Below are positions 18,421 to 47,789 of a stretch of 49,318 nt of DNA, piece after piece. Where the stretch lies: NCBI GenBank assembly GCA_014361445.1, contig JACIVQ010000005.1, positions 1-49,318 of the forward strand. The letters run 5' to 3'. The notes under the pieces were generated by a model. It worked only from the letters and a program-made list of their open reading frames with translations. It did not search any database and was not told where the DNA came from. The position numbers were made by a program, and so were the translations under genes. This DNA comes from Methanosuratincolales archaeon. Its GTDB lineage: Archaea; Thermoproteota; Methanomethylicia; Methanomethylicales; Methanomethylicaceae. How positions within the stretch are numbered: position 1 is the first letter of the stretch; each line of letters begins with the position of its first letter.

Positions 18421-18472
18421 GGCAATGCCCCCAACAAAATAACAAAAGGAGGGAAATAAGGATAGTGATAGA

Positions 18473-18723
18473 GTGAGCTACCCACGGCTAAAGACGTGGG
18501 CTTCCAGCTTCTCCGACCGGACTCGATCCCCACGCACCCACAGCGGAGGCCTCGGCAGATGAGACCGTTTCAGCAAAGCCGTGTGGAAGGCGGGTTACGG
18601 AGGTCCTGATCTCACAGGCGTGACTTCGGCCTGCCCCATGCCTAGCAAAAATAACAGTGGAAAAGGGGAGATAAAATGTTCGCTATCATACCACCGCTAA
18701 AGCATGTGGGATTTCCCGCTCAC
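18473..18723 (-). mobile_element. Full copy A of a 250-bp IS200/IS605-derived element (solo omega-RNA type)
   Basis: Read on the minus strand the element starts GTGAGCGGGAAATCCCACATG at 18723, passes through GGCATGGGGCAGGCCGAAGT (remnant of a TnpB C-terminus, MGQAEVTPVE-like; here with a one-base loss in the GAGATC segment), then a GC-rich segment able to fold, and ends with the hairpin CCCACGTCTTTAGCCGTGGG and TAGCTCAC at 18473. It is about 250 bases, has no transposase and is nearly identical to the copy at 47405, which lies in the other orientation. It must have been moved by proteins supplied elsewhere. Confidence 0.8.
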
Positions 18724-18902
18724 AATGTTAAGGGCAACAGTAACGTTTACAGCAATAAAGTAATAGTAATATTAAGTTATTAATGGTGATGGCGATAGCG
18801 TTTCCCCATAAAAATTCAGAAAGAATTCTGCTGATTCCTAAGAGGCACGGGCTACTTTATTGACTCTCCAGTAACCAATCCTCAATCACAGCAAGACAGT
18901 TT

Positions 18903-21720: not shown

Positions 21721-22159
21721 TGATTGAGTCAAACTGTCGCTCATCTTTTTTATTTATTTTTTAGTCCATGACGTGTTCTATTTTTTTAGAACGAAAGTTC
21801 CAATACCGGACCTATTACGCTCTTTTTTAGCGCCTCTGCCATACGGCTCACTGTTAAGTGGGCGTCTGCCGATAAAAGCCTTTGCACCCGCCTTTTGGTC
21901 TTTAAAGACAGGAGCGGAATTGGAGGGTTTGCTGGAGGTTGTGAGCTACCCATGCCTAAAGTCTGCAGGCTTCCTGCTTCAATGATGGAGCTTGCTGGTA
22001 TATGAATCAGCAGGGGCTCCGCCTCAGCAAGCGGATCATCCCCTTCATAACCAAGACCTAAAATGGCGAGTTATTCATTTTTTATGTTCTTGGTTTTATT
22101 AATTAAAAATAATCGCTTGGTTTTATCGAACACCCCACAGGCTCCTGCCGTAGAGTCAA
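21721..22159. other. Gap holding an IS605-type right end and hairpins
   Basis: No gene is visible in these 440 bases. The part before 21940 has only short open stretches; the part after it holds the transposon end listed separately and a GCTTGCTG...CAGCAAGC inverted repeat between about 22010 and 22046. Confidence 0.4.
21941..22050 (-). mobile_element. Partial IS605-like right end (copy E)
   Basis: On the minus strand this ends with GAAGCCTGCAGACTTTAGGC, ATGGGTAGCTCAC, the same hairpin-plus-GCTCAC end as the 250-bp elements, but the inner sequence differs and forms its own stem (GCTTGCTG with CAGCAAGC). It is probably the end of a related but distinct element whose body is lost. Confidence 0.55.
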
Positions 22160-27765: not shown

Positions 27766-28116
27766 GTGGAAAGCGCTAAGGCGGACAACGGGAAGGCGAA
27801 GGATAAGGATAATGGTAATGGTAAGGGCAAGGGCGATGGTAAGAATAAGGGCAGGTCGATAAGCCAAGCCGAGCTCTACGAGGCAGGTTTGCTGGGGATC
27901 GCGCAGGAGCGCCAGGGCAAGGACGGCGAGCCAGAGGTCTATGTCACCGTGTACGGGTCGGAGTACCTGGTCAAGAGGGCGCCGAAGGCGAAGGCGAACG
28001 GGAACGGCGACGCCAGGGAAGACCCTAGGAAGTACTTCTCCGAAGACCTGCTCATGGAGGCGGGTTATGGAGGTCCTGATCTCCACAGGCGTGACTTCGG
28101 CCTGCCCCATGCCTAG
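27766..28116 (+). CDS. Small orphan protein whose C-terminus is replaced by transposon sequence
   Basis: GTG 27766 lies five bases after AAGGTGG; the ORF-track start at 27265 overlaps the TFB-like gene and is spurious. Residues 1-30 are a Lys/Asn/Gly/Asp dipeptide tract (KAKDKDNGNGKGKGDGKNKG). Residues 30-95 look like a small alpha-beta domain (AELYEAGLLGIAQERQGKDG, EVYVTVYGSEYLVK). The last about 20 residues (EAGYGGPDLHRRDFGLPHA) are encoded by the antisense of the IS605-derived element at 28057, so the natural C-terminus is gone. Unknown function. Confidence 0.55.
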   Translation: MESAKADNGKAKDKDNGNGKGKGDGKNKGRSISQAELYEAGLLGIAQERQGKDGEPEVYVTVYGSEYLVKRAPKAKANGNGDAREDPRKYFSEDLLMEAGYGGPDLHRRDFGLPHA

Positions 28117-28193
28117 CAAAATAACAATGAAAAAAGTGGAAATAAAAACGTTCGCCCTCATCCCACAGCTGGAGCACGGGATTTCCCGCTTAC
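28057..28193 (-). mobile_element. Half copy C of the 250-bp element (left half)
   Basis: On the minus strand it starts GTAAGCGGGAAATCCCGTGC at 28193, includes GGCATGGGGCAGGCCGAAGT with an intact MGQAEVTPVEIRT-like frame, and breaks off after ACCTCCATAACCCGCCTCC inside the orphan gene. The omega-RNA-like segment and right-end hairpin are missing. It marks the left edge of an AT-richer insert. Confidence 0.75.
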
Positions 28194-31235: not shown

Positions 31236-31379
31236 TTTCCAGCGGAGACCGAGACCTCCGTAACCCGCCTCCCATACTTGGTCTGCGGGAACGGTCTCGC
31301 CGAAGGAGGTCTCCGCTGTGGGGATCGAGTCTGGTCGGAGAAGCAGGAAGCCCACGGGCTTAATCCGTGGGCAGCTCAC
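31235..31379 (+). mobile_element. Half copy D of the 250-bp element (right half)
   Basis: Recognisable from GAGACCTCCGTAACCCGCC through CGAAGGAGGTCTCCGCTGTG and GGGGATCGAGTCTGGTCGGA to the right-end hairpin CCCACGGGCTTAATCCGTGGG and CAGCTCAC at 31379. The left half is missing or too diverged. Compared with copy B the stem has one extra G-C pair, so pairing is conserved while sequence changes. Confidence 0.75.
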
Positions 31380-32966: not shown

Positions 32967-32992
32967 ATGAGCGGAAAATCCCACACGCTTTA
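32967..32992 (+). mobile_element. Left-end fragment of the IS605-derived element (copy G)
   Basis: ATGAGCGGAAAATCCCACAC followed by GCTTTAG differs at few positions from the left end of copies A and B (GTGAGCGGGAAATCCCACATG). Nothing of the interior remains. Confidence 0.55.
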
Positions 32993-47362: not shown

Positions 47363-47404
47363 CAGACGGGACAAAATGCCTCGTCTGGAATAAAATTTAA
47401 CAAC

Positions 47405-47654
47405 GTGAGCGGGAAATCCCACGTGCTTCAGCTGTGGGATGAGAGTGGACATAATCTTTATGCCCGCCCTTTTACACTGTTATTCTGCTAGGCATGGGGC
47501 AGGCCGAAGTTACGCCTGTGGAGATCAGGACCTCCGTAACCCGCCTTCCACACGGGCTTTGCTGAAACGGCCTCGCCAAAGGAGGTCTCCGCTGTGGGGA
47601 TCGAGTCCGATCGGAGAAGCAGGAAGCCCACGTCTTTAGACGTGGGTAGCTCAC
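47405..47654 (+). mobile_element. Full copy B of the 250-bp IS200/IS605-derived element (solo omega-RNA type)
   Basis: Left end GTGAGCGGGAAATCCCACGTG, a TATA-like TAATCTTTATGC near 47456, a leftover TnpB C-terminal frame (MGQAEVTPVEIRTSVTRLPH) near 47493, then GCTGAAACGGCCTCGCC, AAGGAGGTCTCCGCTGTGG and CGAGTCCGATCGGAGAAGC, which can pair in several stems, and the right-end hairpin CCCACGTCTTTAGACGTGGG with TAGCTCAC. In TnpB systems the RNA guide scaffold lies exactly at this place, ahead of the right end. Neither TnpA nor the TnpB nuclease core is present. Confidence 0.8.
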
Positions 47655-47789
47655 CTAAACTACCCCCTTCCCCCACAACACGGCGGTTTCAAGCCAACAT
47701 ACTATACCATAACAATGCCAAATTGTGATTAAAATCTTCAAAATATTAAAATAAATGAGCCTTAAATAACGACCTCAACGGTGAGTATA

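Follow-up and report, generated by a model that had tools for sequence, protein, structure and literature searches.

What are the two short repeats, copy A and copy B, that lie on opposite strands of the window (the whole stretch of DNA analysed here, 49,318 nucleotides)? Both carry the ends of an IS605-type transposon. Their inside could be the debris of a TnpB gene or could still have a function. A preliminary description, made from the sequence, proposed a non-autonomous element of 250 bp that keeps a TnpB tail, a guide-RNA segment and both ends. We refer to these and related sequences as solo elements and have followed them through the home genome, other archaea, plasmids and viruses.

Borders and parts of the elements

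Both copies are present as described: A matches B over all 250 positions (85%, E = 3e-75). The ends first noted are correct at one end of each copy. At the other, the element starts four bases earlier, directly after TTAA, as judged from the empty sites described below. The relevant features of the window are as follows (R1 is the covariance model introduced in the next section; C7, C24 and C87 are TnpB elements of the home genome; G001, G002 and G003 are its congeners).

47396..47400, + strand: TTTAA target and transposon-adjacent motif (TAM) left of copy B (empty-site alignment in G002 and G003; border of the pARN4 element against pARN3; TAM of SisTnpB1, PMC10640517)
47401..47654, + strand: copy B of the solo element in full, 254 bp, without target duplication
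47416..47440, + strand: copy B left-end (LE) hairpin ATCCCAC...GTGGGAT, common to C7, C24 and C87
47457..47461, + strand: copy B TATA-like box (TTTAT); the RNA core begins 32 nt downstream
47489..47625, + strand: copy B structured RNA core, homologue of the omega RNA scaffold with a solo-specific apical arm (R1, 142.6 bits; covariation)
47627..47646, + strand: copy B right-end (RE) hairpin CCCACGT...ACGTGGG, followed by GTAGCTCAC up to 47654 (same RE in TnpB elements)
47655..47674, + strand: copy B putative guide, in the flank outside the element (pre-insertion target in G002 and G003; analogy with TnpB omega RNAs)
18473..18727, - strand: copy A of the solo element in full, 255 bp (G001 has the empty site; the target aligns also in G002 and G003)
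18502..18644, - strand: copy A structured RNA core (R1, 164.3 bits)
18453..18472, - strand: copy A putative guide, just upstream of a conserved dsDNA_bind (PF01984) gene (congener empty site; Pfam)
28058..28193, - strand: truncated solo copy, positions 1-142 only (genome search; R1)
31244..31379, + strand: truncated solo copy, positions 116-250 only (genome search; R1)
21941..22070, - strand: relic of a TnpB-bearing element, with RE and short-form omega RNA/TnpB tail (the C87 TnpB aligns here in tblastn at 56% over 46 aa, E = 1e-5; RE motif present)
32967..32984, + strand: isolated left-end-like sequence (motif scan, at most 3 mismatches)

The truncated copies at 28058-28193 and 31244-31379 are two separate relics, because the 27 nt in which they overlap carry different variants. 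A single element split by an inversion is thus excluded.

A structured RNA in place of a protein gene

The inside had been read as a remnant TnpB C-terminal frame. This does not hold, since the frame has stops in copy A and the copies differ by indels of 1-8 nt that are not multiples of three. No ORF of the TnpA/TnpB type, which an autonomous IS605 element would carry, is found within the 254-bp element. The inside is a structured RNA rather than a decaying tnpB tail. It consists of a conserved core of 137-145 nt, flanked by a diverged spacer on one side and by the right-end hairpin on the other; identity among the home copies is 89% in the core and 54% in the spacer. Despite this drift of the spacer, nine of the ten home copies have TTTAT between positions -36 and -28 relative to the core. 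In a shuffle test the mean is 0.5 and 0 of 5000 shuffles reach 9, figures that are descriptive since the copies are related and not independent. This TATA-like box stands at archaeal promoter distance from the core.

The model R1 was built from solo copies, using the 35 pairs of an RNAalifold consensus of 14 sequences. A covariance model across the copies was among the checks proposed earlier, and it reveals strong covariation in 43 distinct sequences from many genomes. Changes on both sides are seen in 18 of the 35 pairs (177 cells, compared with 5-37 in slid controls) and 92.9% of cells are paired (35-48% in the controls); the alignment was fitted to R1, which favours structure, and the margin over the controls is large. 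For example, columns 44/151 pair variously as GC, UG, CG, GU and UA. Columns 66/128 are held as U-G in 35 of the 43 sequences, and several pairs are G-U on one strand only. A known Rfam RNA is excluded: the window has no match above the curated (gathering) threshold, and weak matches in the element are insignificant.

Some members from Sulfolobus and Brockarchaeota (L072, L061) have a small extra hairpin ahead of the core (for example, CTGCTTGGCTGGCAG) and a TATA-like box further upstream. This hairpin is absent from the home copies.

Copies in the home genome and their insertion sites

A search of the home genome (1.46 Mb in 87 contigs, about 90% complete) yielded ten near-full copies, which lie at different sites and are 77-100% identical, besides several truncated ones; many further matches cover just the ends. 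The near-full and partial copies exclude a chance repeat. Full copies start with GTGAGCGGG a few bases past TTAA and terminate in GTAGCTCAC or GCAGCTCAC; the outermost left bases are missing from two home copies. TTAA is adjacent on the left in all 21 copies scored and TTTAA in 19. The window copies have subterminal hairpins and no terminal inverted repeats. The same ends occur on TnpB elements, whose 3' omega RNA is a homologue of the solo core, as expected of the non-autonomous IS605-type element with both ends that had been proposed. Copies A and B are confirmed as members of an IS200/IS605-type non-autonomous family.

Congeners provide the sites as they were before insertion. The locus of copy B lacks the element in G002 and G003 and that of copy A lacks it in G001 (the A target is alignable in G002 and G003 too). 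When joined after TTAA, the window flanks align to these empty sites, and there is no target duplication. Similarly, pARN3 contains GGAGGTTTTAA running uninterrupted into TGAAGTTAAG, and the element of pARN4 sits exactly at this junction. The putative guides differ by site, as had been predicted: the bases to the right of A and B are the old target sequence found in the congeners. A search for targets with these bases, also suggested beforehand, was successful for the elements' own pre-insertion sites in the congeners and gave none in viral contigs, where guide A has no exact match. A candidate off-site target for guide B (TTTAA plus the first 13 nt, in four viral contigs) was rejected, as all four diverge immediately after. 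No virus or other target was found for either guide, which would be expected of guides directed at the empty site of the element itself.

Potential donors of TnpB and TnpA

The preliminary description called for a search for a full TnpA/TnpB donor with matching ends. The home genome provides the TnpB part and relatives provide both. Three intact TnpB-only elements, with the same LE and RE as the solo elements, are present at home: C7:26259-27410 (L032), C24:4802-5938 (L031) and C87:19841-20995 (L033). Their TnpBs match OrfB_IS605 (PF01385) and not the zinc-ribbon family PF07282; in an alignment, the zinc ribbon is missing and the RuvC D, E, D positions are retained. Members of this zinc-ribbon-less clade also occur in relatives (L149, L172-L178). 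They carry the motifs PPKGTSEGL..RDFISANRIK or NPRGTSQEY..DRDYNASLNIL, and several have DxI where DxN is usual. One TnpB-only insertion (L031:1200-2738) reads through into a DUF488 gene, giving a fused frame of 512 aa.

The Y1 transposase was not detected in the home genome, which is about 90% complete. This weighs against the reading proposed below: movement there may have ceased or may require a gene that is missing. The Y1 transposase is present in 12 of the 17 other R1-positive genomes. In the Brockarchaeota, one element (L149, genome G059) encodes both Y1 and a zinc-ribbon-less TnpB and has ends of the same type as the local solo elements. Two Sulfolobaceae elements of about 1.73 kb (L147 and L148, the latter with a zinc ribbon) carry TnpA and TnpB between ends resembling those of the Sulfolobus solo elements. 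Their size and make-up fit ISC1733.

A C87-like TnpB is found in 11 of 16 genomes with R1 matches of at least 60 bits, compared with 26 of 382 other genomes (Fisher p = 3e-9, uncorrected for kinship). Under the strict cut-off, the TnpB search gives no match in the other 5 of the 16, which counts against the reading that we prefer.

Relation to the omega RNA of TnpB elements

With unfiltered scoring, R1 matches the tails of the TnpB elements C7, C24, C8, C31, L143, L149, L147 and L148 (E of about 1e-6 to 3e-4) and, more weakly, that of C87 (E = 0.003). The matches are always RE-proximal. Judged from sequence, the solo RNA is an omega RNA scaffold with a long apical arm, because the basal helices align while the central 42-75 nt are skipped. 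Among the 49 loci of two R1 scans, screened by tblastn, the extended arm and tnpB never occur together. A TnpB lies directly upstream at one locus only (L091, with a short arm), and another locus with a short arm (L093) overlaps a TnpB fragment. The R1 loci checked include no candidate for a source element with both the extended arm and tnpB. Since the resident TnpB elements do not have the long arm, the solo elements are not simple deletion derivatives of them.

In its anatomy the solo element has the layout of an omega RNA locus, with scaffold homology at the RE, the flank directly 3' and the TAM 5'. From the shared basal scaffold we infer that TnpB would accept the solo RNA; the lack of the apical arm in TnpB-linked omega RNAs counts against this. 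The long apical arm probably evolved for use in trans, for example, through better loading of TnpB or greater stability.

Distribution

Of the 398 genomes sampled from the phylum, 20 have an R1 match, which reaches at least 60 bits in 16. Within the Sulfolobaceae-like family, the RNA occurs in 12 of 31 genomes, one of which has 44 copies. A pattern scan identified members in Brockarchaeota DRTY-1.bins.18 (about 40 places), Nitrososphaeria DRTY7.bin_36 and a single Methanophagales contig. The last, a solo-type element at L133:3660-3972, lies outside the Thermoproteota going by the label of its contig, through transfer or mis-binning. None of the three congeners of the home genome has a solo element. 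This patchy occurrence suggests horizontal spread.

The solo RNA is also carried by the S. islandicus plasmids pARN4 and pHVE14, by Acidianus tailed spindle virus (93%) and by metagenomic viral contigs, one of which has three near-identical copies at different sites. Near-identical copies of this kind represent recent movement within a virus. Two or three are present per contig in L211, L213 and L214 (IMG/VR 3300027933_000001, 3300027932_000001), and one multi-copy viral contig additionally encodes an unrelated TnpB-like protein. Within the solo element of Acidianus tailed spindle virus (L158:2141-2314), a protein of 57 aa, ATSV_D57, is annotated in antisense; it is probably not a real gene.

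A proposed mode of action and its alternatives

TnpA mobilises IS605 elements in single-stranded form; the donor site, once re-joined, is cut by TnpB with a guide that derives from the right flank. We consider it probable (roughly 0.66) that A and B are IS200/IS605-type transposons of a guide-RNA-only kind, which would use TnpB and TnpA in trans and restore themselves after excision. A Y1 transposase supplied in trans would move the solo elements as single strands. The promoter of the element would direct synthesis of an omega RNA guided by the 16-20 bases to the right of the element, so that its predicted 3' end lies 16-20 nt beyond GTAGTTCAC. TnpB from another element (at home, of the zinc-ribbon-less C7, C24 and C87 type) would load this RNA and cut the re-joined TTTAA-plus-guide site that excision leaves. 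Repair off the sister chromosome would then restore the element (retention, or 'homing'). The upstream segment containing the TATA-like box is missing in the Brockarchaeota copies L067, L068 and L071, which counts against this scheme. SisTnpB1 is an active RNA-guided nuclease that requires a TTTAA-like TAM (PMC10640517), and mobilisation of SMN1, an S. islandicus element discussed below, is cited as observed in PMC3718332. More tentatively, and in a form that we find a little easier to doubt than to accept, the family could be a widespread selfish guide-RNA lineage, made up of nothing more than its two ends, a promoter and an omega RNA whose dedicated arm is absent from the guide RNAs of TnpB itself. 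It would have passed between archaeal lineages, borne by viruses and conjugative plasmids, and would recruit resident TnpB in trans to guard its sites.

The elements could instead be ordinary MITEs, whose ends suffice for movement and whose inside is an inert relic of the TnpB tail and omega RNA. They have no protein gene, core-deleted IS605 elements have a precedent in the PATEs (PMC3119063), and core-less LE-RE fusions (42 bp) exist in the home genome (L020, L027) and also in virus SMV1a. An inert inside is, however, at odds with a core that covaries across many genomes and is kept at 89% while the spacer is down to 54%, with the retention of the TATA-like box and with an RNA arm not inherited from any TnpB element found. 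We regard it as distinctly unlikely.

Two further alternatives accept the conserved fold and assign it another role. The solo RNA might be off guide duty, acting on TnpB or TnpA as a decoy or regulator, or binding some other protein, in which case the flank would be irrelevant. The restriction of the arm to TnpB-less elements would suit this, as would its high sequence conservation from Brockarchaeota to Sulfolobales, but the RE hairpin, the target-derived 3' flank and the TTTAA-type left TAM make up the full working layout of an omega RNA; such a role seems unlikely to us. The fold might also be conserved as single-stranded DNA, given that IS200/IS605 transposition uses folded single-stranded ends. 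Yet TnpA recognises subterminal hairpins, and TnpB elements with the same ends have quite different insides. In addition, several pairs are G-U on one strand only (columns 66/128, for example) and a TATA-like box stands upstream. We give this explanation very little credence.

Comparison with known systems

Cas12 descends from TnpB, whose guide RNA normally lies within its own transcript. Altae-Tran in 2021 and Meers in 2023 reportedly described bacterial standalone omega RNAs and TnpB-less IS elements. For bacterial standalone guide RNAs, use by a nuclease encoded elsewhere has been proposed or shown; the nucleases and hosts differ from those of the solo elements. We know of no earlier description of a family-wide, solo-specific RNA arm. 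If the guide-RNA-only reading is correct, the solo elements represent a natural split of nuclease and guide, a step taken by CRISPR systems as well. They resemble the SisTnpB1 omega RNA system in basal scaffold, RE hairpins, TTTAA TAM and a guide beyond the RE (PMC10640517). However, a tnpB transcript normally supplies the omega RNA as its 3' end, whereas the solo elements have no tnpB and a long extra arm. They would offer a naturally extended guide-RNA scaffold that can be compared with the TnpB-linked form.

The Sulfolobus members are very probably the known MITEs SMN1 and SMN2, an identification based on length, host and donor. Those of pARN4 and pHVE14 come from the same host, S. islandicus, measure about 320 bp as published, have ends of the ISC1733 type and lack inverted repeats. 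SMN1 is reported to depend on ISC1733 and to be actively mobile (PMC3718332); SMN2 is described in PMC3839810. In the sections of these two papers drawn on here, both are presented as MITEs with small putative ORFs and a guide RNA is not mentioned. The window copies differ from them in length (254-255 bp) and ends, and have mainly the RNA core in common. Short length and mobility were already known; the RNA, its covariation, the solo-specific arm and the phylum-wide reach are added here. A guide-RNA function, if real, would account for the long non-coding inside kept by Sulfolobus MITEs such as SMN1, and S. islandicus with SMN1 and SisTnpB1 would be an experimental system at hand.

The PATEs of Haloquadratum have no inverted repeats, near-terminal palindromes and no target duplication, and are too short to hold a transposase; one (HqIRS71) contains a TnpB C-terminal segment and others consist of the termini only (PMC3119063). 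They are like the solo elements in their IS605-type palindromes near the ends and in lacking inverted repeats and target duplication. They differ in belonging to another phylum, in their unrelated sequence and in being described as degenerate, whereas the solo elements enclose a structured RNA that is conserved and preceded by a putative promoter of its own. Virus SMV1a carries an LE-RE fusion without core (L159:1495-1560) that resembles the terminal-only PATEs. Core-less minimal elements of about 42 bp, with LE fused to RE, are also found in the home genome at G000:C4:17355 (L027) and G000:C70:4035 (L020).
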